Virus record (IMG/VR): IMGVR_UViG_3300046048_000257
Coordinates: 1-64,000 of that record
Reading direction: 5' to 3' (one strand)
DNA length: 64,000 nucleotides
Source of the DNA: a virus
Positions 6,129 to 25,222 of this stretch are shown in pieces. Every line of letters starts with the position of its first letter. The stretch's first letter is position 1. Under the pieces are notes generated by a model that made no database searches, had not been told where the DNA came from, and saw only the letters and a list, made by a program, of their open reading frames with translations. The translations under genes and the position numbers were made by a program.

Positions 6129-6389
6129 ATGTATATAAACCAGATAGAGCACAAAGGTAAGGAGCCCAGTGTGGTGGCTGCTCAGATGATAGGCTGGATG
6201 TATGAAAGCCACTGCTGGTTTGAGGAGGCCGGTAAGGCTAATAGAGTGTGTGTATGGTGTGGTGCGGAAAGTGCGGAGGATATGAAAATAGTGGGGCTGC
6301 CTGAGCCTATACTGTGCCTGCGTAACCCGCTGGTGACTGGTGCGGATTTAAAGGAGGCGCTGATAGCACTGGGGGTAAAAAGTGAGTGA
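6129..6389 (+). CDS. hypothetical CxxC protein, 86 aa
   Basis: Small protein with CVWCGAES in the middle, a possible half zinc site. The ATG at 6129 fits the AAGGAGG at 6118-6124; a GTG one codon earlier would be too close. The 3' end overlaps the polymerase gene start by 8 bases. No family recognised; coupling to the polymerase suggests an accessory replication protein. Confidence 0.65.
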   Translation: MYINQIEHKGKEPSVVAAQMIGWMYESHCWFEEAGKANRVCVWCGAESAEDMKIVGLPEPILCLRNPLVTGADLKEALIALGVKSE

Positions 6390-9078
6390 TGTAACGCTGT
6401 ACTATGGTGATAGCTTTAAGGGTAGTAACTGCCAAAAGTGCGGACTGGATGCTGAGTGTGTAACACCCCGGATGGCAGCTGGAGGCCAAGGCCTCCGGGG
6501 CTGGCTGGGCATAGGTGAGGGCCCCGGTGAAAATGAGGACTTGCAAGGCATACAGTTTGTGGGTGAGGCTGGCCAGCTGTTAATACAGCAGCTGGCACCT
6601 CATGGGATAGAGCTGCACCGGGATTTTAAGTTGATAAATGCGGTAAATTGCAGACCGCCAAAAAACCGCACACCCACGGCTGGTGAGATAGCTGCGTGCA
6701 GAGGCCGTGTTTTTGATGTGATAGATGAAATGCAGCCCAGCCACATATGGCTCATGGGTGACTCTGCTATAAAATGCTTTTATGGCGGGCGCTTTAGTGA
6801 AACTGGGATAGGCCGATGGCGGGGCCTGCATATACCGGACCGGCTAACCGGGGCGTGGGTGCACCCCATGTACCACCCCAGCTTTGCACTGCGCTCAGGT
6901 AAGGACCAGAATAAACTGAGCGTATATGAGCGGGACCTGCGGGAGGCTGTGGGCTGGCTGGGCATGGACCGGCCACAGTTTGTGGACCCGGAGCAGTATG
7001 TGCACAGGCTTAAGGATTACGGCGCCATTAAAAAGTTTTTAGAGGAGCTGCTGGCAGCTGCACAGACTGGGCCCATATCCATAGCCATAGACTGGGAAAC
7101 CACACACATAAAACCGTGGTATCCGGGCTTTCAGCGTATATGGAGCGCTGCGATATGTACGGGCCCGGAGTATGCTGCGGCTTTTCCGGTATCCTATCCG
7201 GGGGCTCTAAGTGAGGAGCAGGAGGCGCATGTAAAGGACCTGCTGCGGGCCATACTGGTGCACCCTAATATTTATAAATCAGCGCATAACCTCCAATTTG
7301 AGCACATATGGGCACAGGCTATACTGGGCGTGACCGTTAAAAACTGGGCGTGGTGCACTATGAATGGGGCCCACGTACTGGATGTGCGTAAGTATTACTG
7401 CGGCCTTAAGTTTCAGGCGTACATACACTGGGGGCTGGAGGGCTATGAGGATGAGGCTAAAAAATATATAAAAGCTGGAGCCAGTGAAATTAACCGGCTG
7501 GGTGAAATGCCACTGGACCACCTGCTGTTATATAATGGGCTGGATGCCCTGCTGTGCCAGTGGCTGTATAGCCTCCAATATCACAAAATGCAGGAGGCGC
7601 CTGAGTTGTATAACGGTTATACGTTTTTCCATGATGGCTTACAGGCGCTGGCTGAGGCCACTATACATGGGATACCCATGGATGAGCTGTATTACGCTGA
7701 GCAGCGCTGGACCTTAACGGAGCGCATGGATAAGCTGATGGCCGTACTTACCAGTGGTGAGATAGCTGAGGCATATAAGAAAAAAACCGGGGAGGAGCTG
7801 GCCATAGTAAATAAGGATTTTAGCGCCAAAGCCCTCCGGGTGGTGCTATTCGATATATTGAAACTGCCTAAAAATAAAACCACGGCCACTGGACTGGACT
7901 CTGTGGATAAGGAGGTACTGGCCAAGGCTGGTGATAATGGGTGGGTGGGCTCACTGCTGGAATGGCGCAAGCTGCATAAAATAGTTAACACGTATATAGC
8001 CCAGTTTGAGCGTGAAATACATGAGGGCTGGATGCACCCGTGGTATCCACTGCATACCACCCGGAGCACCCGTGGCTCCAGCATGAGCCCTAACTTTCAA
8101 AATATCCCAAAGCGTGAAAAGGAGGCAAAAAAGGTAACCCGGCAGGGTGTGGTGGCAGAGCCCGGATACCGCCTGTGTGCGGTGGATTATGGCAGCCAAG
8201 AGGTAAGGACCGCTGCAATACTGAGCGGTGACCGTGCGCTTATGGAATACTGCCACCAGCCAGATAGCGATATGCACGCAGATGTGGCACACCGTATCTG
8301 GCGCATAGACCCGGACTGGATAAGCAGCATGCTGCGCTTTCATAGTAAGGGTGGTTTTGTTTTTTCGCAGTTTTATGGCAGCTATTATGTGAGCTGTGGT
8401 ATAGACCTGTGGGAAAAGTGCATAATTGAGCCACTGGTGCTGGATACTTATAAAGGGCAGAAACTGGACCCGCAGTATCATGTGCTGCTTAAGGACCATT
8501 TAGTGGGCACAGGCATTATTACTAATGATGAGCACAAAAAGACTAAGCTAAAAATCCGGGGTAAGCTGGAAACGGTGAGCCAGCAGCTGGCGGATTTTGT
8601 GGTGCATGTAAAAACGGTGGAGCAGTGGTTTTGGCATAAGTTTGCAGGCCTGCGTGAGTGGCAGGAGCGCATGACATATGAATATCAGCGGACTGGGTAT
8701 GTGAGCATGCCTTTTGGTTTCAGGCGTGGCGGGCTATTGAATAATAATAAAATTTATAACACGGCCATACAGGGTACCGCTTTCCACTTTTTGCTGTGGA
8801 GTTATATACAGCTTACTCACATAAGCCGGGCCCAGTGGCGCAGCAGACTAATGGGCCAGATACATGATGAAATGATGTACCATATGGCTGAGGGTGAGGA
8901 GCAGATAGTGCTGGATACCACGGTGGATGTAATGGAGCGCCAGATACGTGAGCGCTTTGACTGGATAACGGTACCGCTGGTAGCGGAGCCTGAATGGAGC
9001 CCGGTGGGAGGTAACTGGACTCAGATGCAGGATGTGGTAAAGGGACCGGATGGCTGGGGGCTTAAGGAGGCAGCGTGA
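6382..9078 (+). CDS. uracil-DNA glycosylase / DNA polymerase A fusion
   Basis: 898 residues with three enzymatic parts. Residues 1-190 are a family 4/5-type uracil-DNA glycosylase: C17, C20, C90 and C106 match the four Fe-S cysteines, GIGEGPGENED matches the GEAPG active-site loop, and HPSFALR matches the C-terminal histidine motif. Residues about 230-400 form a 3'-5' exonuclease (AIDWETT, HNLQFEH, YNGLD). Residues about 520-880 are polymerase A: motif A VDYGSQEVR, motif B RFHSKGGFVFSQFYG, motif C QIHDEMM. The polymerase copies the phage genome; the glycosylase would remove uracil during synthesis. GTG is the only start in frame after the upstream gene. All catalytic acids look intact. Confidence 0.92.
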   Translation: MSDVTLYYGDSFKGSNCQKCGLDAECVTPRMAAGGQGLRGWLGIGEGPGENEDLQGIQFVGEAGQLLIQQLAPHGIELHRDFKLINAVNCRPPKNRTPTAGEIAACRGRVFDVIDEMQPSHIWLMGDSAIKCFYGGRFSETGIGRWRGLHIPDRLTGAWVHPMYHPSFALRSGKDQNKLSVYERDLREAVGWLGMDRPQFVDPEQYVHRLKDYGAIKKFLEELLAAAQTGPISIAIDWETTHIKPWYPGFQRIWSAAICTGPEYAAAFPVSYPGALSEEQEAHVKDLLRAILVHPNIYKSAHNLQFEHIWAQAILGVTVKNWAWCTMNGAHVLDVRKYYCGLKFQAYIHWGLEGYEDEAKKYIKAGASEINRLGEMPLDHLLLYNGLDALLCQWLYSLQYHKMQEAPELYNGYTFFHDGLQALAEATIHGIPMDELYYAEQRWTLTERMDKLMAVLTSGEIAEAYKKKTGEELAIVNKDFSAKALRVVLFDILKLPKNKTTATGLDSVDKEVLAKAGDNGWVGSLLEWRKLHKIVNTYIAQFEREIHEGWMHPWYPLHTTRSTRGSSMSPNFQNIPKREKEAKKVTRQGVVAEPGYRLCAVDYGSQEVRTAAILSGDRALMEYCHQPDSDMHADVAHRIWRIDPDWISSMLRFHSKGGFVFSQFYGSYYVSCGIDLWEKCIIEPLVLDTYKGQKLDPQYHVLLKDHLVGTGIITNDEHKKTKLKIRGKLETVSQQLADFVVHVKTVEQWFWHKFAGLREWQERMTYEYQRTGYVSMPFGFRRGGLLNNNKIYNTAIQGTAFHFLLWSYIQLTHISRAQWRSRLMGQIHDEMMYHMAEGEEQIVLDTTVDVMERQIRERFDWITVPLVAEPEWSPVGGNWTQMQDVVKGPDGWGLKEAA

Positions 9079-12364: not shown

Positions 12365-13487
12365 GCTGGTGGATGATAAGGGCCCAGTAATAGGTGGCCG
12401 CAGAGCAGATGACCCGGCGCCTGAGCCTGCCCCAGTGCAGGATAGGCCCACCATGATGGCAGCAGATGTGGAGGCCGCTATAAACAGCTCTGTGTGCAGA
12501 GCGGATACCATAAATGAGGGTGATTTTAAACGTGGTGTGCTTAGCACTGGCAGCACGTTGCTTGACTGTGCCATTTCAAGTGAGCGCATATACGGCGGAG
12601 GGGTGCCCGCAGGCGTAATACTGGAAATATATGGGCCCAGTAGCAGCGGGAAAACCGCTATACTGGCGGAGCTGGCTGCCAGTGCTAAGTTTAAGGGCGG
12701 AGGTGCCCGCTTTGATGACCCGGAGGGTAGGCTGGATACTAAGTATGCTGAGCAGTGTGGGCTCATTTTAGGTAAAAATGAGTATGGGCGCCCGGATACT
12801 GTGGAGGACCTTTTTGAGGGGCTGGAAAAATGGGCCCCAAAAGGCAAAAAGGGTGCGCTGCATGTAAGCTGTGAGGATAGCATAGCGGCTTTTAGCACAC
12901 GGGCGGAAATGGCGGACCCTAACATGGAGTATGCTGCGGCTAAGCGGGCACAGAAATACCACCAAGGCTTTAGGACCTTAGGGCGCCGGATAGCTCAGGA
13001 GGGGTGGATAATTGCATGCAGTAACCATGAGCTGCAAAATTTTGAAACTGGGGCTAAAACCACACCGGGTGGTAATGCGTTAAAATACTGGGCCAGTATT
13101 AGGCTGCGGATAGCCAAGGCTTTCAGGCAGGGTGATATTGAGCGCTCATGGAAAATAAGCAGTGCCACTGTTAAGCGTGTTATAGGTATCCGCTCTGATG
13201 TGAAAGTGGTTAAAAACAGCTGTGGGCAGCCATTTAGGGAGGCCCCGGTGTTTATCATTTTTGGTAAAGGCGTGGATGATGTGCGGGGTAACTTGTGGTG
13301 GCTTAAAACTACACTGGGCACAGAAAAATATGACTGTATGGATAAGGAGTACAGTGATATTTATGCAGCCATTAAGTATGTGGAGGATAATGGCTTAGAG
13401 GCTCCGCTGCGTGATAAAGTGATAAAACTGTGGAATACCATAGACCTGCACTTTACAGATGACCGTAAACCTAAAGTGAGGTTTTGA
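12351..13487 (+). CDS. UvsX/RecA-family recombinase
   Basis: Forms filaments on ssDNA and promotes strand exchange, driving recombination-dependent replication. Walker A is GPSSSGKT at about residues 94-101. The stretch TPGGNALKYWASIRLRI corresponds to the end of DNA-binding loop L2 and following strand in RecA (TPGGxALKFYASxRLxI). 378 residues is near the usual length. The first 45 residues are a Pro/Asp-rich extension. Neighbours encode SSB and UvsY-like proteins. No truncated motif was noticed. Confidence 0.88.
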   Translation: MTKRKLVDDKGPVIGGRRADDPAPEPAPVQDRPTMMAADVEAAINSSVCRADTINEGDFKRGVLSTGSTLLDCAISSERIYGGGVPAGVILEIYGPSSSGKTAILAELAASAKFKGGGARFDDPEGRLDTKYAEQCGLILGKNEYGRPDTVEDLFEGLEKWAPKGKKGALHVSCEDSIAAFSTRAEMADPNMEYAAAKRAQKYHQGFRTLGRRIAQEGWIIACSNHELQNFETGAKTTPGGNALKYWASIRLRIAKAFRQGDIERSWKISSATVKRVIGIRSDVKVVKNSCGQPFREAPVFIIFGKGVDDVRGNLWWLKTTLGTEKYDCMDKEYSDIYAAIKYVEDNGLEAPLRDKVIKLWNTIDLHFTDDRKPKVRF

Positions 13488-13488
13488 A

Positions 13489-13743
13489 ATGAGCAGAGAT
13501 ATTTTAGCTTTGTGTTTTGATGAGCTAACGGAGGCCCATGAGGCATTAGATGCTTATATGGTAAAGGTGGTATGCCCTAAATGTTATAGGGTATTACGGA
13601 TACACCCACCTATGCAGCAAAAAACAATAGAGGCACAGTGCCCTGTGTGTGAGTGTACTTTTTATATGGGTGCCATGTATGTGGCTAATCTGTGCCCACA
13701 CGAATTATGGGCGGCCATAGATAGGGCCCGGCAGGCTGTGTGA
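13489..13743 (+). CDS. zinc-ribbon protein, 84 aa
   Basis: Contains CPKC and CPVC pairs about 25 residues apart, flanked by beta-strand-like sequence: a classic zinc ribbon. Starts one base after the recombinase stop. Likely a small nucleic-acid or protein-binding accessory factor; no family recognised. Confidence 0.7.
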   Translation: MSRDILALCFDELTEAHEALDAYMVKVVCPKCYRVLRIHPPMQQKTIEAQCPVCECTFYMGAMYVANLCPHELWAAIDRARQAV

Positions 13744-13749
13744 GGGTAC

Positions 13750-13980
13750 ATGAGTATATGGAAACCATATTTTAATAAGTTACAAGGTGACCAGTGCGCC
13801 TGTGGGCGGCTTAAGGCACGCAAAATGAGCTTTTGCCGGGACTGTTACCATATGCTGCCTGCTGGTGCCCAGCGTGCGCTGTACCGCAGAATAGGTGAGG
13901 GTTATGAGGAGGCCTATGACCATGCGGTGGAAATATTAACCATAAGGGAGCGCATAAAAAAGGAGGTGCCTGATGATTAA
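13750..13980 (+). CDS. zinc-binding hypothetical protein, 76 aa
   Basis: CACGRLKARKMSFCRDC gives a C-x-C...C-x2-C cluster near the N-terminus, followed by a helical half. GAGGGT lies upstream. Unknown function; the second small Cys-rich protein in a row after UvsX. Confidence 0.7.
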   Translation: MSIWKPYFNKLQGDQCACGRLKARKMSFCRDCYHMLPAGAQRALYRRIGEGYEEAYDHAVEILTIRERIKKEVPDD

Positions 13981-14113
13981 CTTTAATATACTGGTGCTGG
14001 GTATAAGTGCGGTGGTTTTAATAATTTTGTGGGCCGGTAACAGGACTGTAACTAATAGGCGTAAGCGGGCGCTTAAGCGCAGGCTGGAGGAGGTACTTAA
14101 TGGAAACAGATAA
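13973..14113 (+). CDS. small membrane protein, 46 aa
   Basis: ATG follows AGGAGG with 6-base spacing and overlaps the previous gene by 8 bases. Residues 2-22 (INFNILVLGISAVVLIILWA) form one transmembrane helix, followed by a highly basic cytoplasmic tail. It ends overlapping the next ORF. Function unknown. Confidence 0.6.
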   Translation: MINFNILVLGISAVVLIILWAGNRTVTNRRKRALKRRLEEVLNGNR

Positions 14114-14363
14114 GCCCATGGGCCCCACGGATGCCATAGATTATGAGCCACAGAGGCCAGCTGATGCTGTGGGAGCTGCCCGTGCTAAGTTTGCAGAGGA
14201 ACTGGAAAAGGCCGCTAATGAGCTATACAAAAAAACCGGCTTTGTGGTTACTGCCTGCACCCTCCAGTATCATGTGCAGCGGAAAATAGGTAACGTGGGT
14301 GTGGCTAACGTGAGAGTGCATGCGCTGGATGTGGAGGTACTTATGCCGGAGGATGTGCTATGA
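14100..14363 (+). CDS. hypothetical protein, 87 aa
   Basis: Helical first half and a beta-rich second half (VRVHALDVEVLMPEDVL). GGAGGAGG lies 6 bases upstream. Stop and next start share ATGA with the exonuclease gene. No family recognised. Confidence 0.65.
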   Translation: METDKPMGPTDAIDYEPQRPADAVGAARAKFAEELEKAANELYKKTGFVVTACTLQYHVQRKIGNVGVANVRVHALDVEVLMPEDVL

Positions 14364-15268
14364 GGGTGCTTATAGTGGATGCTATGAATATAGGGCATAT
14401 CATGTTCCACTCTATGGGTGAGCTGGACTTTCACGGGAGGTACACGGGTGTGATTTTTGGTTTTTTAGCAAAGGTACTCCAGCTGGCGGAGCGCTTTAAT
14501 ACTAAGCATTTTGTTTTTGCATGGGATAGCCAGCAAAGCCTCCGGCGCCATGTATATGAGGCCTATAAGGACCGGGAGCGGGGCACTAAAGTAGTTAGGG
14601 GCACAGGTGAGGTAATAGATTACCAAGCCCTCCATGACCAGATGCAGGAGCTGTATAACCCGGTGCTGGGCAGACTGGGCTTTGTAAACGTGATACGCTG
14701 GACCGGGCTGGAGGCAGATGATGTAATAGGCGCCGTGGTTAAATATGGGCAGGTCCACCCTGCATACAGTAATGGTGATAATATTGAGTGGGTGATAGTG
14801 AGCACAGACCGTGACCTGTACCAGCTGCTGGGCTCTGCTGTGCGGATGTATAACGTGAGTAAAAAGGAGGAGTACACGGAGCGCCATTTTAAGGATGAGT
14901 ACGGAATAGAGCCCAGCCAGTGGGTGGAGGCCAAGGCCATGGGTGGGTGTTATACTGATAATATAGCAGGTATCAGCGGCATAGCGGACCCGGCCAAAAG
15001 CACAAAAAGCCGGGCCCTTAAAATATTGAGGGGTGAGCTAAAGGATGGCTATTATGTGGAGCAGGTAAACAGCCAGCTGGGCCAGTTTGTGATTAATCGT
15101 AACCGCCTGCTGGTGCAGCTGCCTTTTATGCCTAAAATGCCGGTGGTACTGCCTGATATGTTTAACCGGGCTGCCTTTTTGGAGCTATTTGACCAGCTGG
15201 GCTTTACCTCATTTTTAAAGCCTGAGCGGTGGAAAAAATGGGAGGATTATTTTGAGCTGGCTAAGTGA
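14360..15268 (+). CDS. 5'-3' exonuclease (FEN/PolA N-terminal type)
   Basis: 302 residues. The metal-binding acids of flap nucleases are visible: LIVDAMN at the start, AWDSQQSLRR, LEADDVIG, VSTDRDLYQLL and CYTDNIAGISGI, the last being the helix-hairpin-helix approach. Such enzymes remove RNA primers and 5' flaps, supplying the activity absent from the phage polymerase, which has only a 3'-5' exonuclease. The gene overlaps both neighbours. Confidence 0.88.
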   Translation: MRVLIVDAMNIGHIMFHSMGELDFHGRYTGVIFGFLAKVLQLAERFNTKHFVFAWDSQQSLRRHVYEAYKDRERGTKVVRGTGEVIDYQALHDQMQELYNPVLGRLGFVNVIRWTGLEADDVIGAVVKYGQVHPAYSNGDNIEWVIVSTDRDLYQLLGSAVRMYNVSKKEEYTERHFKDEYGIEPSQWVEAKAMGGCYTDNIAGISGIADPAKSTKSRALKILRGELKDGYYVEQVNSQLGQFVINRNRLLVQLPFMPKMPVVLPDMFNRAAFLELFDQLGFTSFLKPERWKKWEDYFELAK

Positions 15269-15569
15269 AAAAGCAAAAAGTGTACTGGGCTTTATGGGCT
15301 TTAGTAGGGAGCTGCCTTTAATGGAGCCCAGCATGATAAGCGGAGTGCATGTGGATATAGAGCTGGATATTACCTGTAACAGCATGAGCCTCACTGAGGC
15401 GCTGCTTACAGTGGCTGAGCTAAAAAGCCACATAGATGCACTGCCCGGTGTTAAAAGTGCGCATATACGGCCTCTGGTGGAGTTAAATGGGCTATTATGG
15501 GAGGGCAGTGAGCCCGTAACCAGAGGGGTGCTGTTTAAATTACAGGAGGATGCAGATGGCAAAAGGTGA
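15252..15569 (+). CDS. hypothetical protein, 105 aa
   Basis: TTG at 15252 lies 6 bases after GGGAGG and inside the exonuclease gene end. The chain begins with an amphipathic helix (WLSEKAKSVLGFMGF) followed by a beta-rich domain. Unknown function. The rare TTG start is inferred from the ribosome site; the next ATG would remove the first 14 residues. Confidence 0.6.
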   Translation: MSWLSEKAKSVLGFMGFSRELPLMEPSMISGVHVDIELDITCNSMSLTEALLTVAELKSHIDALPGVKSAHIRPLVELNGLLWEGSEPVTRGVLFKLQEDADGKR

Positions 15570-16200
15570 CCAGTGGGAACGGGACTTAAGTAAGTGGATG
15601 AGTCTGTGGTGGACTGAGGGGCACCGTGATGATGTTATATGGCGGGTGCGGGCCTCCGGCAGCCGGGCCACCTCCAGAGCCAAAAAAGGTAAGGCCACGG
15701 CTGGTGGTGCTGGTGACCTGAAAGCTGAGGATATTATAGCCCAGCCACTTTTTGATTACTGGCTGGCAGAGGCTAAGCGTGGGTATGATGTTAAAAAGGG
15801 TAAAAAAACCCGTAATAATGAAAGCATAAACGTGCTGTACTGGCTGGATAAGCCGCATGGCACTAAACACCCCCGGCTGTATCAGTGGTGGCTGGAGGCG
15901 GATGCCAAAAGGAAACAGCAGGGCCGCTTTGAGGCAGTAATAATATTTAGGCGGACCGGTAAGCGTGCTGTAATAATGATGAGGGCGCAGGCTTTTGGTG
16001 ACCTGCACCACTGGTGTGGTAATTATGAGGGCATTACCATAGATATTAGATATGGAAACACGTGGGAGCAGGGGGCTTTTACTTTGTTAGATTTAGAGGA
16101 CTTTTTTGCATGGTGCAGCCCGGAGTCTATAAAGCAGGCTCTGGCTGAGCGCCAGCAGGGGGTGGTAAATGTACGGCCAAAGCGGGTGCTCATAATGTAA
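15556..16200 (+). CDS. PD-(D/E)XK nuclease, Holliday-junction-resolvase-like
   Basis: 214 residues. GDQWERDLSKWM (Glu), the basic ASGSRATSRAKKGK, GAGDLKAEDI (Asp) and LAEAKRGYD (E-x-K) appear in the order expected for PD-(D/E)XK enzymes such as archaeal-type Hjc resolvases. It probably cleaves branched DNA left by recombination-dependent replication before packaging. ATG 15556 fits AGGAGG at 15544; ATG 15550 would be too close. The C-terminal half (WCGNYEGITIDIRYG...) is not recognised. Confidence 0.65.
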   Translation: MAKGDQWERDLSKWMSLWWTEGHRDDVIWRVRASGSRATSRAKKGKATAGGAGDLKAEDIIAQPLFDYWLAEAKRGYDVKKGKKTRNNESINVLYWLDKPHGTKHPRLYQWWLEADAKRKQQGRFEAVIIFRRTGKRAVIMMRAQAFGDLHHWCGNYEGITIDIRYGNTWEQGAFTLLDLEDFFAWCSPESIKQALAERQQGVVNVRPKRVLIM

Positions 16201-16212
16201 AGGAGGTAAATT

Positions 16213-16695
16213 ATGGGGTGGATACTGATAGTGGCTGCGGCATTTTTTGCAGGCACTTTAGTGGGCTCAATTACTATGAGCCTTATGTGGCATAGTAAAT
16301 ATGAGCGTGAGCTGGGTGGCCATATAATGAGCCTACTGGACTGGGTGGAGCGGATGTATAACCGTGGCAGATTACTGGAGGCGATAGCTGAAACCAGAGC
16401 TTACTGGGACTTAAAAACACAGGAGGGTAACATGGCACGTATTGAAGTATTAGAAAATAAACGGGCGCCGCAGAGCATATGCCCGCACTGTAAAGGGCTG
16501 CTGTATCTGGACCTGAGCTTATTTGAAAATGATGTGAGCAAGATAGTGGAAAGCAAGTGCCCTAAATGCGGCGGTACAATATTCACAGCTTTGCTGATAT
16601 TAACCCACCCACAGATACATGGGCTGGCCCGGACCATAGCCAGTATAGTGGAGCAGATAGATGAGGGTAAGCGCCACCTGCTGGGAGGTAACTGA
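16213..16695 (+). CDS. membrane-anchored zinc-ribbon protein
   Basis: 160 residues. Residues 2-27 are one transmembrane helix (ILIVAAAFFAGTLVGSITM), followed by a helical linker and a zinc ribbon formed by CPHC and CPKC. An AGGAGG with a well-spaced in-frame ATG occurs inside the gene at 16432, so a shorter soluble form (87 residues, the ribbon only) may also be made. Function unknown; it lies between nuclease and SbcC genes. Confidence 0.7.
   Translation: MGWILIVAAAFFAGTLVGSITMSLMWHSKYERELGGHIMSLLDWVERMYNRGRLLEAIAETRAYWDLKTQEGNMARIEVLENKRAPQSICPHCKGLLYLDLSLFENDVSKIVESKCPKCGGTIFTALLILTHPQIHGLARTIASIVEQIDEGKRHLLGGN
16432..16695 (+). CDS. possible internal-start product, soluble zinc ribbon
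   Basis: In frame with the longer gene. AGGAGGG at 16421-16427 stands 4-5 bases before this ATG, as good as the sites of ordinary genes here. The product (87 residues) would contain both cysteine pairs without the membrane helix. Whether it is translated separately cannot be told from sequence. Confidence 0.4.
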   Translation: MARIEVLENKRAPQSICPHCKGLLYLDLSLFENDVSKIVESKCPKCGGTIFTALLILTHPQIHGLARTIASIVEQIDEGKRHLLGGN

Positions 16696-16970
16696 TGGAT
16701 ATATGGGGTAACATTTACATAGGTAAGCGCTGGGTGGAGGATGATGGTACACCGGGCTGCGAGATACAAAACAGTAAGGAGTGGCATGTAAAAACCTCCA
16801 CTAAAATAAAAGTGGAGCCCACCCCGGAGTTTAGGCTGCAATTTATGCAGCTGGGCACAGAGTGCGCCAAAATAATAGCCATGCAGCTGGAGCAGATGCG
16901 TGATGAGCTGCTGTATTTAGCTGAGTACGGTATAAAGGAGGCCGGTACTGATGAAACGAAAAAAGGCTAA
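16695..16970 (+). CDS. hypothetical protein, 91 aa
   Basis: Start overlaps the previous stop (TGATG) after GGGAGG. Beta-rich N-terminus and a helical acidic C-terminus. No family recognised. Confidence 0.65.
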   Translation: MDIWGNIYIGKRWVEDDGTPGCEIQNSKEWHVKTSTKIKVEPTPEFRLQFMQLGTECAKIIAMQLEQMRDELLYLAEYGIKEAGTDETKKG

Positions 16971-17259
16971 GACTTTCAGGCTGGATATGGATAAGCCTGC
17001 CACTGGCGCCGGGCCGGAATATGGGGCCCAGCCGGATAAAAAGGTGGTAAAAATCAGGCCGTTTAAGGCTAAAAACGATATAAACCGGTACCCGGTGCGC
17101 AAGGGCCAAGGCGTGACCATTAACGGGTGGCAGTTTGAAGTAAAAACCATACAGCCTAATGGGATGCTGTACCTTAGGCCCATAGGGTTTATTATTGAGG
17201 ACCTAACACGGGGCCCAGTGGCGGCAGCCCTTAAGCCGGAGGCACAGGCTGATGATTAA
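16951..17259 (+). CDS. hypothetical basic protein, 102 aa
   Basis: Overlaps its neighbours at both ends. A basic start (KRKKAKTFRLD) precedes a beta-rich domain (GWQFEVKTIQPNGMLYLRPIGF). Coupled directly to the SbcC N-half gene by an 8-base overlap. Unknown function. Confidence 0.65.
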   Translation: MKRKKAKTFRLDMDKPATGAGPEYGAQPDKKVVKIRPFKAKNDINRYPVRKGQGVTINGWQFEVKTIQPNGMLYLRPIGFIIEDLTRGPVAAALKPEAQADD

Positions 17260-18223
17260 TAAAATAATGATAAAAAATTTTAGGAGCCATGAGCACACGG
17301 TAATAGAGCTGCATGAGCATGTTAACGTGATAGTGGGTAAGGGCCAAGCTGGTAAAAGCAATATAAAGCGGGCTGTGGAGTGGGTAAGCACTAACCGCCC
17401 GCTGGGCGCCGCTTTTATAAGCTGGTGGGCTAACGGTGAGCCCTGTGCTGTGCAGATAGGTCTAACTAACCCGGATGGCGCTTACACGGTGACCATGACC
17501 AAAACAGGTGAGGGCTCAGCTGAGTATAAGGTGGATGGACCCGGATGGCGTGAGCCTCAGGTGTTTAGCTCAGTGGGCACAAAGGTGCCTGATTTAGTGC
17601 GCCGGATACTTAATATGGATACAGTAAACATGCAGGACCAGCTGGACCAGCCATATCTGGTGGTGGGCAGCAAGGGTGATATAAGCCGGGCTGTTAACCG
17701 GGTAATAGAGGCTGAGGTGGCTGATAAGTGGCTTATGGAGTTAAATAGCCGGGATACACGTAACCGGCAGACCATTAAAGCGCTGGAGGCTGTAATAGAC
17801 CAGCAGCAGACTAATGCCAATTTACTGGCCCCTGTGCTCACAGCGGAGGAGTTTATAGTGCAGGCAGAGCTGGCGGATACCCGGTTGACTGTGGCATATA
17901 ACCGGGCTCAGGGTATAGAGCAGCTGCTGGATAGCTTAAAACAGGCTGAGGCCGTGGTGACTGGTTTAGCTAATGTGGTAGGGCCTCTGGAGCAGATGGT
18001 AAACATGGCAGAGGCGGTACAGGCTGAGATAGGCGCAGCCGTGGCCCAGTTAGTGGCCATAGATGGCTGGTGGCGCTCTGAGCAGGCTGTAAATGAGCTG
18101 GCTGGCCAGTACCAGAGGGTGGTGGCAGAATACGTGCAATTATTGGAGCAGCTGGGCCAGTGCCCCACATGCCTGAGCCCGGTGGATGAGCAGATGATAG
18201 CACAGCTTAAGGAGGAGCTATGA
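17252..18223 (+). CDS. SbcC/Rad50-like ATPase, N-terminal half
   Basis: 323 residues containing the front half of a Rad50-type ATPase. IKNFRSHEHTVIEL is the usual opening, Walker A is GKGQAGKS at residues 29-36, and a coiled coil runs from about residue 150 to 300. The zinc-hook motif CPTC (C303, C306) lies only 17 residues before the stop. Walker B and the signature motif are absent; they are found in a separate gene at 21040-21702. Together with the Mre11-like nuclease at 18537 these would form a DNA-end-processing complex, equivalent to T4 gp46/gp47. The coil is very short compared with SbcC. Confidence 0.85.
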   Translation: MINKIMIKNFRSHEHTVIELHEHVNVIVGKGQAGKSNIKRAVEWVSTNRPLGAAFISWWANGEPCAVQIGLTNPDGAYTVTMTKTGEGSAEYKVDGPGWREPQVFSSVGTKVPDLVRRILNMDTVNMQDQLDQPYLVVGSKGDISRAVNRVIEAEVADKWLMELNSRDTRNRQTIKALEAVIDQQQTNANLLAPVLTAEEFIVQAELADTRLTVAYNRAQGIEQLLDSLKQAEAVVTGLANVVGPLEQMVNMAEAVQAEIGAAVAQLVAIDGWWRSEQAVNELAGQYQRVVAEYVQLLEQLGQCPTCLSPVDEQMIAQLKEEL

Positions 18224-18432
18224 GCGTGAGGTGTAAAAAAATAATTAGATGCCTAAATATGGATTTAGATTTAGTTTTACTGGGCATGTGCGCCATGAGC
18301 GTACTTTTGTGGGTACTGCTGGCGGGCTGCGCCACTAAGGTGGGCTGGGGTGAGGGTGATACCATGCTGCGCCAGTATCCTGTGCCCATAGAGTTTTACA
18401 TAGCGGAGGGCGCTACTAATAACACGCAGTGA
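18220..18432 (+). CDS. small lipoprotein
   Basis: 70 residues. A basic start, a hydrophobic segment (VLLGMCAMSVLLWVLLAGC) and a lipobox LLAGC-A mark a lipoprotein anchored in a membrane after cleavage before Cys. The mature part is short and neutral. It starts with ATG overlapping the SbcC N-half stop. An outer-membrane spanin subunit (Rz1-like) is one possibility; its place inside the SbcCD cluster is odd for that. Confidence 0.6.
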   Translation: MSVRCKKIIRCLNMDLDLVLLGMCAMSVLLWVLLAGCATKVGWGEGDTMLRQYPVPIEFYIAEGATNNTQ

Positions 18433-18536
18433 GTGTATATTTATGTAACCGCTTCCGTGCCGAAGCATATAAGCCCTGAGGGTGAGGTAAATTTACCGGG
18501 TGCCCAGCCGGGGATAATAACAAAGTGAGGCGCTGA

Positions 18537-19490
18537 ATGGCTATACAGATATATAGTGAGTCTGGAGTAAAGCCAGAAAAAATAATTTTTGTAAGTGATA
18601 TGCACATAAGCAGTGAGCAGCCAATAGGCCGCATAGATGATGCTCCGGCCACGTGCGTAAAAAAGTTTAAATGGATTTTGAGGGCTGCCATACAGCATAA
18701 TGCGGTAATAGTGCAGGCCGGTGACTTGTTTAATAGCTCACGGGACTGGGAGGCACTTAACGCTATAACCATGGCACTGCGGGAGCATGCAGTGCCATTT
18801 TTTTGTGTGTACGGCCAGCATGATATGTATATGCGCAGCAAAAAGGCCCGGCCATACACGTGCATGGGCCAGCTGGCCGCAGCCGGGCTGGTGAATATAC
18901 TGGGCTCAGTACCATTATTACTGGAGGGCTGGGCTATATATGGCGCCAGTTACGGTGATGCTGTGCCCACACCTGCTCCGGGTGATTACCGTAATATACT
19001 GGTGCGGCATGCCCCTGTGCACACTCAGGCACTTTTTGATGGCCATGAGTATATAGATGCAGTGGGCACATTAAAACGGCTAAAGGATTACACCATAATC
19101 CACTGTGGTGATATACACCGCAGCTTTCATATCACAGAGGGGGCACGTGCGATATTTAACACGGGCCCTTTTTTTAGGCGGGATGCCACGGAGTATAATT
19201 TTAAGGTGCATGTGCCCAGTTTTGTGGTGCTGGATATTGCAGGTGATAATAATGGGCAGCTGCACTGGTATGAGGCCCCATGTGAGCCCGCAGATAAGGT
19301 GCTGAGCCGTGAGCACATAGATGAGGTACAGGCCCGCAAAATATTGAGTGAGTTTATTGAGGCTATACACGTGCACGGTCCGCTGGTTAACGTGAGTATA
19401 GTGGACCGGGTAAAAAAGGCGCTGGAAAGCCCGGAGGTGCCCGCCAAGGTAAAGGCACTCATGGAGGAGGTTATGGGGCATGTGGGCTAA
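18537..19490 (+). CDS. SbcD/Mre11-like nuclease
   Basis: 317-residue calcineurin-like phosphoesterase. Metal ligands are seen at SDMH (D21, H23), AGDLF (D63), YGQHD (H95; Gln replaces the common Asn), RHAPVH and HCGDIH. Mre11/SbcD (T4 gp47) trims DNA ends together with Rad50/SbcC. The two halves of the partner ATPase lie on either side of this gene. The roughly 100 bases upstream contain only very short ORFs. The C-terminal 90 residues are helical, as expected for the Rad50-binding part. Confidence 0.88.
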   Translation: MAIQIYSESGVKPEKIIFVSDMHISSEQPIGRIDDAPATCVKKFKWILRAAIQHNAVIVQAGDLFNSSRDWEALNAITMALREHAVPFFCVYGQHDMYMRSKKARPYTCMGQLAAAGLVNILGSVPLLLEGWAIYGASYGDAVPTPAPGDYRNILVRHAPVHTQALFDGHEYIDAVGTLKRLKDYTIIHCGDIHRSFHITEGARAIFNTGPFFRRDATEYNFKVHVPSFVVLDIAGDNNGQLHWYEAPCEPADKVLSREHIDEVQARKILSEFIEAIHVHGPLVNVSIVDRVKKALESPEVPAKVKALMEEVMGHVG

Positions 19491-19869
19491 TGTGCTAACA
19501 AAGGAGTGGGACCCGGATTTTATAGGATACCTGCTGGAATGGCTGGGCTATGATGGTGTGGCGTTTTTTCAGATGTGTATGGATGCTTATAATACTGTGA
19601 GTCCAATATGGCAGGAGGGTAAGCCGGATAAGCCTTATACCATGCGGGCTCCACACCCTGTGCATTTTAGGGAGGGCGTACAGGTGCGTAATGCCATGCG
19701 CCGTATTCACAAAAAAATGGGGCTGGGCGTGTATGGTGGGCGCCACTTCTATGATGATAACTGGCAGAGTGCGGTACAGGCCGCCTTAAAAATGTGTGAG
19801 GAGGGTTACACTGATGAGCACAGAGCAGTTACAGCAGGTAAAGCAGAGGCTGGACCAGCTGAGGACTAA
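19480..19869 (+). CDS. hypothetical protein, 129 aa
   Basis: Overlaps the SbcD gene by 11 bases. Trp/Tyr-rich helical protein with no motif recognised. The C-terminus overlaps the next coiled-coil gene. Confidence 0.65.
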   Translation: MWANVLTKEWDPDFIGYLLEWLGYDGVAFFQMCMDAYNTVSPIWQEGKPDKPYTMRAPHPVHFREGVQVRNAMRRIHKKMGLGVYGGRHFYDDNWQSAVQAALKMCEEGYTDEHRAVTAGKAEAGPAED

Positions 19870-20173
19870 CCTGAGTGCGGCCATGATGCGCCGGGATGAG
19901 GTGGTGGCTGCGCTCCAGAAAAATTACGGTTTTAACACGGCTAAGGATGCAGAGGTGGAGCAGAAAAAATTACGGGATGAAACTATACCGACCATGGAAA
20001 AAAAGCGGGATGGTTTCATAGCCAAGGCACAGGAGGTGATTAATGGGCTCAATACGCAAGCTGTACCCGGAGGAAATAGCAGAGCGGCAGAACAGACTGG
20101 ACTTAGTGGAGGAGCCGACCCCGGAGGATTACCGCAAGGCCGCACCGTGGTGGGGCGCAAGCGGCGTATTTGA
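19814..20173 (+). CDS. coiled-coil protein between SbcD and SbcC C-half
   Basis: 119 residues; the first 75 are a clear coiled coil (QQVKQRLDQLRTNLSAAM; AKDAEVEQKKLRDETIPTME). Short coiled-coil proteins like this often sit beside phage SbcC genes, and it might supply part of the missing Rad50 coil. The last 40 residues are Gly/Pro/Arg-rich and overlap the next gene by 131 bases in another frame. ATG 19814 follows GAGGAGG with 8-base spacing. Confidence 0.65.
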   Translation: MSTEQLQQVKQRLDQLRTNLSAAMMRRDEVVAALQKNYGFNTAKDAEVEQKKLRDETIPTMEKKRDGFIAKAQEVINGLNTQAVPGGNSRAAEQTGLSGGADPGGLPQGRTVVGRKRRI

Positions 20174-20291
20174 GGGGTATAAAAAGCATTTTTTTGATAC
20201 CCGGCGTGAGGCCTTTTTATCCGGGCTGGGTATAGGTGCGTTGCTGGGCTCTGCACTGATAATGGTAATAATGCTATGGATGAGCGCATGA
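20043..20291 (+). CDS. C-tail-anchored membrane protein, 82 aa
   Basis: Strong AGGAGG 6 bases before the ATG. Residues 58-81 (FLSGLGIGALLGSALIMVIM) are a transmembrane helix at the C-terminus; the N-terminal part is charged. The 5' half is encoded within the 3' end of the coiled-coil gene. Unknown function. Confidence 0.65.
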   Translation: MGSIRKLYPEEIAERQNRLDLVEEPTPEDYRKAAPWWGASGVFEGYKKHFFDTRREAFLSGLGIGALLGSALIMVIMLWMSA

Positions 20292-20689
20292 AATTTTACC
20301 GCTATGAGGATGTGCAGTACACGGATGGCCCCCGTATCCATGAGCTGGTGCTGTATCTGGTGCGGGAAACGCCCTGCGGATACTGGATAAGTCCACGGCG
20401 CCATTATAATGAGGCCGATGAGGATAAGTGGTTTTTTTATTATGGTGACCGTAAACGCTGGGTGAGTAAAACCACCCGTAAGCGGTATGCGTATCCTACC
20501 AAGGCAGAGGCTATGGCTAATTTTAAGGCCCGTAAGCGGCGCCAGATAGATATACTGGAGTACCGCCTTAACCGGGCTAAAAAAGCCCTCCAGAGCGTTT
20601 GTGAGGGCCCTGAGGAGCTAAAACAGATGGCACTATGGCTGGAGGGCACAAAGCAGACCCTGCCACTGGGGCTGAGCATGGAGTGGTGA
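20276..20689 (+). CDS. hypothetical protein, 137 aa
   Basis: N-terminal half is aromatic and beta-rich (YLVRETPCGYWISPRRHY; KWFFYYGDRKRWVSK), C-terminal half helical. It resembles small phage proteins that reformat a stretch of Trp/Tyr but no function is known. ATG 20288, which overlaps the preceding TGA, is an equally likely start. Confidence 0.65.
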   Translation: MDERMKFYRYEDVQYTDGPRIHELVLYLVRETPCGYWISPRRHYNEADEDKWFFYYGDRKRWVSKTTRKRYAYPTKAEAMANFKARKRRQIDILEYRLNRAKKALQSVCEGPEELKQMALWLEGTKQTLPLGLSMEW

Positions 20690-20690
20690 T

Positions 20691-21074
20691 ATGATAGTGC
20701 TTACGCAGCTGGATAGGGACTTTTTAGAGTTTCATCACAATAACCCCAAAATATTTAAGCTGTATTTACAGTTTGCACGTAAGGCCATAGCCCGTGGGCA
20801 CACCCGGTACAGCGTGTGGGGGCTCATGCAGATTATTAGGTGGCATGTGGATATAGTAACTGAGGATATAACAGGCTATAAGCTGCGTAATGATTATGCA
20901 GCTCTGTATGCCCGGCTGATAGTGCTAAAACACCCTTATGAGTTTAAGGACTTTTTTAAGTTTAAGGCTATGAAAAACTCCAATTTAGGGCCGTACTGGG
21001 AGCAGCTGATAAAGGCTAAATACAGGAGGAGGGCGGAAAATGAGCGAACTGGCGCAAGTAAGGCAGCAGTATAA
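20691..21074 (+). CDS. conserved-type phage protein of unknown function, 127 aa
   Basis: Helical protein with FHHNNPKIFKLYLQFARKA, IIRWHVDIVT and DYAALYARL, a pattern I recognise from many phage replication clusters, where it has no assigned role. It directly precedes and overlaps the SbcC C-half gene. Confidence 0.7.
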   Translation: MIVLTQLDRDFLEFHHNNPKIFKLYLQFARKAIARGHTRYSVWGLMQIIRWHVDIVTEDITGYKLRNDYAALYARLIVLKHPYEFKDFFKFKAMKNSNLGPYWEQLIKAKYRRRAENERTGASKAAV

Positions 21075-21702
21075 TAAGCTGGCAGCTGATTACCGGGCAG
21101 CAGCGGCTGTGCTGGAAAACAGTAAAGCGCAGCTGGAGGAGGCTAAGGATGTGGGCACAGCCCTGAGTGCTACTGCCCTGCTGCTTAAAAAAATAATCCG
21201 TGAGGTGCAGGGTGAGTTTAAGGGTGAGGTGGATAAGGTGGTGACCATGGCCGTGCGCACCTTATTTGATGAAAATTATAAGTTTGATCTTGAAATAAAA
21301 ACCGGAGGCCAAGGCCTCCAGTGCAGGCCGGTGATATGGGAGCATATAGAGGGGCAGTGGCGTGAGTTTAGCCCTAAGGATGATATGGGTGGCTCAATAC
21401 TGGACCCCATAGCTCTGGCGCTGCGGACCGTATTACAGCAGTATGACCCTGAGCCCACACGGGCCTCCATGTGGTTAGATGAGCCCATGAAAAACGTGGG
21501 TAAGGGTGAGCTGCTGTTGCGGGCGGGCCAGCTCATTACGGAGGTGAGCCATGGCCTAAATATTCAGATGATAATAATAACCCATGAGCCGGAACTGGCT
21601 GAGATTGCAGACCGGGCATGGCGTGTGGTGCGACAAAAAACGGGGCGGAGCGCAGCCACTGTAATTAAAGGAGGTGCCCAAAAACGTAAAATAATACAGT
21701 GA
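21040..21702 (+). CDS. SbcC/Rad50-like ATPase, C-terminal half
   Basis: 220 residues with the rear half of a Rad50-type ATPase: a short coiled coil (residues 1-75), the ABC signature in DDMGGSILDPIALALR, Walker B SMWLDEPMKNVG and the H-loop IIITHEPELAE. It has no Walker A, which is in the gene at 17252. Assembly of the two halves, clamped by coiled coils, is needed for ATP binding. About 2.8 kb and seven genes separate the halves. The start overlaps the previous gene; GGAGGAGGG precedes it. Confidence 0.85.
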   Translation: MSELAQVRQQYNKLAADYRAAAAVLENSKAQLEEAKDVGTALSATALLLKKIIREVQGEFKGEVDKVVTMAVRTLFDENYKFDLEIKTGGQGLQCRPVIWEHIEGQWREFSPKDDMGGSILDPIALALRTVLQQYDPEPTRASMWLDEPMKNVGKGELLLRAGQLITEVSHGLNIQMIIITHEPELAEIADRAWRVVRQKTGRSAATVIKGGAQKRKIIQ

Positions 21703-24518: not shown

Positions 24519-24690
24519 CTTAATAAATGAGCTGATAATGGCCAGCCTGTGGTATTACGGGATAGCTCTGGTGGCTGTATGTGCTATGGCCTATGGGCTC
24601 ACTGTTATATACCATAAAATTATAGATAAATTCACACAGGAGGGTGATGATGGCACACGGGCAAAAAACCAGATGGCTAAAAGGCATTAG
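24502..24690 (+). CDS. small membrane protein, holin candidate
   Basis: 62 residues with one transmembrane helix (WYYGIALVAVCAMAYGLTVI) and a charged C-terminus. ATG 24502 lies 6 bases after AGGAGG; it overlaps the preceding gene. Size and topology fit a holin, yet no family motif is seen. Confidence 0.5.
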   Translation: MSWMSDLINELIMASLWYYGIALVAVCAMAYGLTVIYHKIIDKFTQEGDDGTRAKNQMAKRH

Positions 24691-25222
24691 GCCGGGCTGG
24701 CGGACCGCATGGCAGGTGGTAGTGGACCCCGGTGACCCGCAAAATACAGGGGAGCGGCTGGCAGAGCGGTACACATGGCAGGAGGGTAAATATGAGCTAT
24801 TTGCTAAGGAGGTGGCCGGAGTAGGTGCCTGCGTTATTACCTTTGACTTTAAAGGGGTACCTAAGCATGCTGGAGGCGGAGGCCATGACCTGCATGTGAG
24901 CTGCTATGGCTATTACAGTGGTAACCATGCTGCGCCTCAGGCCCCTAAGTTTCAGATTTATGATTATGTGGGCACAGACTGGGAGGATATTACGGGTATG
25001 GTATTCCAGACCGGCCAAAGCGGCTATGAGCGGCTGGAGGGCCGGGTGCCTTATGATGCAAAATACTGGGGCACAGGTAATAATGTGCGGATACGGATAC
25101 TGCACCCGGTGATAGGGGGTAACCCGCTGCATGAGTTTCACATTAACCATGTAGGACTGGGCACATATGGTACCACCAGCACCACCTCCACCACGACCAG
25201 CACTACGACCACTGCACCTTAA
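24650..25222 (+). CDS. virion-type protein with Thr/Ser tail
   Basis: 190 residues. A beta-rich body (about 15-170) with CVITFDFKGVPK and HEFHINHVGLG resembles a carbohydrate-binding jelly-roll, and it ends in a Thr/Ser tract like those of the tail proteins. That shared tail suggests it is on the particle. AGGAGGG precedes three consecutive possible starts; 24650 has the best spacing. Located before the terminase, away from the other structural genes. Confidence 0.6.
   Translation: MAHGQKTRWLKGIRPGWRTAWQVVVDPGDPQNTGERLAERYTWQEGKYELFAKEVAGVGACVITFDFKGVPKHAGGGGHDLHVSCYGYYSGNHAAPQAPKFQIYDYVGTDWEDITGMVFQTGQSGYERLEGRVPYDAKYWGTGNNVRIRILHPVIGGNPLHEFHINHVGLGTYGTTSTTSTTTSTTTTAP
25172..25213 (+). repeat. 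Thr/Ser codon tract
   Basis: Fourteen Thr or Ser codons, mostly ACC with ACG, AGC and TCC, at the C-terminus of the gene at 24650. Confidence 0.9.

Follow-up and report, generated by a model that had tools for sequence, protein, structure and literature searches.

In the cellular Mre11-Rad50 (SbcCD) complexes, Rad50/SbcC is a single chain that folds into a hairpin with the zinc hook at its apex, and its signature motif is of the LSGGE type. Among phages, the closest counterpart is gp46/gp47 of T4, an Mre11-Rad50 pair with short arms that is encoded beside recombination and replication genes and in which gp46 is a single polypeptide. The Rad50 catalytic domain is present as separate N and C chains in PDB entries 1f2t and 1f2u, and in that structural work the two chains reportedly re-form the ATPase, which provides a precedent for a split Rad50. 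That split was engineered and includes neither hook nor arm, whereas the split described here occurs naturally, at the hook.

Signalling between the Rad50 head and hook is thought to run via the continuous antiparallel coil, and it is debated whether the ring opens at the hook or at the head (PMC6969161). Mre11-Rad50 fusions have been described as well: the passages of Yoshida et al. 2011 (PMC3175470) that deal with them include two proteins that are missing one SbcC P-loop segment. Mre11-N fusions also occur in the family analysed here; however, those passages report fused proteins and no separate C-half gene, which the split family has. The two segment-less fusions, from Bacillus phage 0305phi8-36 and Anaerostipes, may be earlier sightings of the split arrangement. 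Lamassu LmuB, an SMC-like protein accompanied by the effector LmuA, is one chain, in contrast to the split family, which shows only partial ATPase and coil matches to it and in which no effector was identified. The PHROGs collection holds an 'exonuclease' family matching the N-half (phrog_16465) and an 'ATPase' family matching the C-half (phrog_15167), catalogued apart and unlinked as halves of one protein. No description of a split Rad50/SbcC was found in the open-access literature; subscription papers and preprints were outside this scope, so the absence is not proof.

The present family shares with the cellular complexes Walker A, Q-loop, coil, CxxC, Walker B, H-loop and an Mre11 partner, and its joined head, as modelled, has a fold like that of the cellular Rad50/SbcCD heads. 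It differs in that Rad50 is apparently distributed over three genes, the hook is at the C-terminal tip of a chain, and the signature is of the GGG[VI] type. With T4 it has in common a phage Mre11-Rad50, short arms and recombination and replication neighbours.

The split locus in the window

The window is the stretch of 64,000 nucleotides analysed here, taken from a virus record of 86,878 bases (IMGVR_UViG_3300046048_000257). The initial annotation had recognized in it a Rad50/SbcC ATPase divided between two ORFs, and both are present, with correct coordinates and motif description; the Mre11/SbcD gene and the six other ORFs reported to lie between them were all located. The features of the locus are as follows.

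17252..18223, + strand: Rad50 N-half, 323 aa, lobe I, ascending coil and C-terminal zinc hook (Pfam, PHROG and family HMM matches)
17336..17359, + strand: Walker A GKGQAGKS, N-half residues 29-36, from the sequence
17639..17641, + strand: putative Q-loop Gln, residue 130, in NMQDQLDQPYL (Q in 114/116 N-halves)
18161..18172, + strand: predicted zinc-hook CPTC, residues 304-307, with the stop codon 16 residues further
18537..19490, + strand: predicted Mre11/SbcD-like nuclease, 317 aa (Pfam Metallophos, E 2e-9), with GQHD and GDIH variants
19814..20173, + strand: small coiled-coil protein, probable distal descending Rad50 arm (family coil HMM, E 5.6e-8)
21040..21702, + strand: Rad50 C-half, 220 aa, proximal descending coil and lobe II (phrog_15167, family HMM)
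21388..21426, + strand: degenerate ABC signature GGSILDPIALALR (family consensus GGG[VI]xD...ALR)
21475..21483, + strand: Walker B LDE with the presumed catalytic Glu (DE in 95/96 C-halves)
21583..21585, + strand: H-loop His, residue 182, in IIITHEPEL (H in 82/96 C-halves)

The N-half matches AAA_23 (E 1e-8) and AAA_15 (E 1e-10) in Pfam and phrog_16465 (E 2e-16) in PHROG, and the C-half matches phrog_15167 over its full length (E 1e-22). Shine-Dalgarno-like sites precede the ATG codons of the N-half (GGAGG), the coil gene (GGAGG) and the C-half (AGGAGG), so that all three look independently translated. The coil ORF has a second possible start, GTG at 19796; counted from the ATG at 19814, it comprises 119 codons and ends in a Gly/Pro-rich tail, compared with a typical coil-gene length of about 75-95 residues in the loci described below. 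Over ~130 bases, the end of the coil gene is also read in another frame, as part of an 82-codon ORF with a C-terminal hydrophobic stretch (20043-20291), and the Gly/Pro-rich tail coincides with this overlap.

The N-half indeed stops shortly after the hook, as originally described, although 16 residues were counted past CPTC rather than 17; the relatives are split at the hook alike. The coils, which had been called unusually short, are so only by the yardstick of cellular Rad50: the ascending arm in the window is ~137 residues, against a median of 179 among loci with the gene order N-Mre11-C.

Distribution of the split among viral loci, phages and plasmids

Searched with the N-half sequence alone, viral contigs gave no matches, but a profile search succeeded, and profile searches of IMG/VR with both halves returned 64 and 80 loci. 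Removal of identical entries left 125 loci, a few of which share one contig; under a stricter similarity filter, 95 N-halves and 75 C-halves remain, and two weak matches in genome contigs (L071 and L072) were left out of the counts. Among the ~125 loci, there is no ORF that holds both the N- and the C-half. The N-half, Mre11 and the C-half are found together, each within one locus, in 95 cases, in the order N-Mre11-C (68), N-C-Mre11 (23) or Mre11-N-C (2), or as an Mre11-N fusion with a separate C-half (2). Fusions of Mre11 with the N-half were seen in L025, in L143 and on plasmids of Geobacillus and Paenibacillus. In one 135-kb record (L164), the N-half alignment crosses one TGA and one TAG codon, which could reflect recoding or simply an alignment that continues beyond the stop.

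The position of the break is conserved together with the break itself. The CxxC motif, the predicted zinc hook, is present in 111 of the 113 N-halves with a complete 3' end, the exceptions being Microbacterium phage Magritte and L039, and in 109 of these 111 it lies no more than 22 residues from the C-terminus (median 10). Thus, the hook is not at the apex of a continuous antiparallel coil in this family; the chain ends a median of 10 residues past CxxC.

BLAST identified the split in cultured phages as well. In Bacillus phage vB_BboS-125, gp32 is the N-half, gp34 the coil protein and gp35 the C-half; its Mre11 is an open frame that is unannotated in the record (L004 9247-10227; NC_048735.1 22423-23403). 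The record of Magritte has one half at 0.3 kb and the other at 93.8 kb. The N-half of this phage (gp155; L003 6001-7053) is devoid of CxxC, the C-half is ~94 kb off, and there is no adjoining coil gene; Magritte is a derived or hookless member of the family. All four genes, every one annotated as hypothetical, stand in a row in Microcystis phage Mvi-JY20, and all four are also carried by the uncultured 485-kb phage LR745208. Beyond phages, the cassette is present on complete plasmids of Bacillus velezensis (p3), Geobacillus subterraneus, Paenibacillus polymyxa (SC2) and Alkaliphilus, under the names 'AAA family ATPase', 'metallophosphoesterase' and 'chromosome partitioning protein ParA' or as hypothetical proteins. 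The survey of phages proposed in the initial annotation has thus yielded some 125 distinct viral loci, deposited phages and Firmicutes plasmids that share the arrangement.

The small coil gene and the proposed complex

The locus had been interpreted as a natural two-polypeptide Rad50. The split is natural, but the count of two pieces very probably does not hold, the coil gene at 19814-20173 being a likely third piece that was overlooked. A small coil gene accompanies the C-half in 115 of the 123 loci that have one, mostly adjoining it; among 94 distinct loci, it overlaps the start of the C-half gene in 48 and lies within 30 bases of it in 19, and in the window the distance is 0.9 kb. No coil fused to a C-half ORF was found among the loci surveyed. 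The sole locus with an extended N-half is L143, where Mre11 and the N-half share a single 771-aa protein that runs on for 138 residues beyond CPLC, and where a separate coil gene was sought and none found. With no coil gene and an N-half that continues past the hook, this locus indicates that the coil piece is probably the descending strand. The post-hook tail of L143 scores 18.7 bits against the coil profile, compared with at most 7.9 bits for 498 shuffled sequences and at most 11.2 bits for N-half coils; given that C-half coils reach 17.1 bits on the same profile, the match is suggestive, short of conclusive.

The near-equal scores of the C-half coils, the generic coil character of the sequence and the 0.9-kb spacing in the window are all compatible with another possibility, namely, that only the two halves are pieces of Rad50 and that the coil protein acts separately, as a regulator or chaperone of the hook. 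We consider this conceivable but unlikely in view of the association of the coil gene with the C-half across the loci and of its absence from L143. Judging from sequence, the coil protein probably corresponds to the strand that follows the hook in ordinary Rad50, and the Rad50 of these phages and plasmids consists of at least two separate pieces, very probably three.

In the window, the lengths of the two strands agree, with ~137 residues up and ~140 down (~80 from the coil protein and ~60 from the C-half). In the N-C-Mre11 group they do not: the ascending strand has a median of 333 residues and the descending one ~137, which is incompatible with a simple two-stranded arm in that group; the long N-half coil there must fold back or bear an extra element.

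The locus most plausibly encodes, and we hold this with considerable confidence, an Mre11-Rad50 (SbcCD) complex with Rad50 made as three polypeptides, within a phage recombination module. The N-half would supply lobe I (Walker A and Q-loop), the ascending coil and, at its extreme C-terminus, the zinc hook; the small coil protein would probably supply the distal descending strand directly past the hook; and the C-half would supply the proximal descending coil and lobe II (signature, Walker B, D-loop and H-loop). The N- and C-halves would join as one composite ABC head, two such heads would sandwich ATP on an Mre11 dimer, and the hooks of two N-halves would be linked via zinc. By analogy with T4 gp46/47, the most likely role of the complex is to process and tether the ends of phage DNA in support of RecA-type recombination-dependent replication. 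Upstream of the cassette, the window encodes an 898-aa protein (6382-9078) that combines an N-terminal domain of the uracil-DNA-glycosylase superfamily (E 3e-19) with a family A DNA polymerase (PolA, E 3e-45), along with a gp32-like SSB, RecA, a 5'-3' exonuclease and a PDDEXK endonuclease.

We give roughly even weight to the further proposition that the Rad50 arm is discontinuous, with the hook at an unattached chain end and a separate, exchangeable protein as the descending strand, throughout a large class of phages and plasmids. If so, the apex or the arm could open or swap, or come under regulation by subunit exchange, and coupling between head and hook would need no continuous chain. A natural, widespread Rad50 that is broken at the hook makes head-hook signalling and ring opening directly testable, with pieces available for mixing, labelling or swapping, and challenges the usual picture of Rad50 as an obligately continuous chain. 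For the annotation of phages and plasmids, three protein families, two vaguely named and one nameless, become linked into one complex.

The Mre11-like ORF bears on the function of the complex. By Pfam, it is a calcineurin-like phosphoesterase, with Q and D at two metal-ligand motifs (GQHD for GNHD and GDIH for GHxH). This pair is common to 53 loci, and ~40 others have the canonical GNHD/GHxH. The two changes are coupled: GQHD in motif III accompanies GDxH in motif V, and GNHD accompanies GHxH. Together with a match of the Bacillus velezensis plasmid N-half to the Lamassu SMC-like subunit LmuB (E 3e-14), the variant motifs could point to a split Rad50-Mre11 that forms as proposed but serves in tethering, clamping, SMC-like DNA compaction or counter-defence, not in nucleolytic processing. 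We rate such a role as somewhat less probable still than an independent coil protein. Canonical motifs are retained in the ~40 other loci; in Mimivirus R555, which is an Mre11-Rad50 fusion, His206 is likewise replaced by D (H206D), according to the part of PMC3175470 that covers this protein, so such a change exists in the Mre11 of other viruses too; the cassette lies within a recombination and replication gene cluster, where no Lamassu effector was seen; and ATPase matches to many defence proteins are expected because the P-loop is shared.

Probable pairing of the two halves

The motifs of the two halves are strictly complementary. The GK of Walker A is invariant in 116 N-halves. In the C-half signature, GG is kept in 93 and 91 of 96 sequences and is followed by G and V/I where LSGGE has E. 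Walker A is absent from all 123 C-half ORFs, and among 144 N-half ORFs only that of Magritte shows even a loose Walker B-like string.

The halves also co-occur. In 20 records, the N-half has no complete C-half within reach, and in 9 of these a C-half match was detected elsewhere; the missing nearby C-half was found in all eight records of 108 kb or more. The remaining records with an N-half only are mostly short fragments, along with one 82.5-kb record without a C-half match. In G000, the sole AAA_23 match is the N-half. A further 26 records, some of them from cultured phages, were screened: 22 contain a single AAA_23 match above the curated cut-off and the other 4 weaker matches only, and the positions compared fall at the N-half. 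With at most one match over the cut-off per record, a second intact Rad50 was not seen in the 27 records checked. Correlations of gene distances were considered as pairing evidence and dropped: the value for N-C (0.85) is no higher than those for N-Mre11 (0.86) and C-Mre11 (0.89) and shows only co-inheritance.

For structure prediction, we used L070, in which the N- and C-halves are in one frame, 130 codons apart, and modelled the read-through with stops as glycine, from an alignment with 67 relatives. In this alignment (A4), the hook tails of most N-only rows extend beyond the query end, and the lobe columns are in register. AlphaFold2 predicted both lobes with pLDDT >90 and a disordered linker with pLDDT <40 (pTM 0.57); because the two lobes were modelled within one chain, joined by the read-through linker, their proximity is partly imposed. 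In Foldseek searches, the two modelled lobes jointly match solved Rad50 heads, namely, 3qku and 5dny (TMt 0.70) and E. coli SbcCD 7yzp (TMt 0.55). For the L143 N-half with its tail, the N chains of 1f2u (A and C) are top fold matches.

Each half alone matches general ABC/SMC profiles, albeit weakly, as might be expected if the halves came from different ATPases or if one of them were a decaying remnant. Either is very improbable and was rejected on the combined evidence of motif complementarity, the partner half in eight of eight large records, the lack of any other Rad50, Mre11-N fusions beside separate C-halves and the joint AlphaFold2 head match; as the initial annotation had supposed, these are very probably two halves of one Rad50. 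That the break arose in assembly or sequencing, or through an insertion into a single gene of the window phage, is ruled out for practical purposes, the same split being conserved in ~125 distinct loci from independent assemblies, in cultured phages and on complete plasmids.

Ser/Thr-rich tracts were observed in other ORFs of these records. In L006, a 1796-aa ORF on the minus strand (12819-18209) consists mostly of Ser/Thr repeats, and the window ORF at 24644-25222 ends in a shorter Thr/Ser tract.
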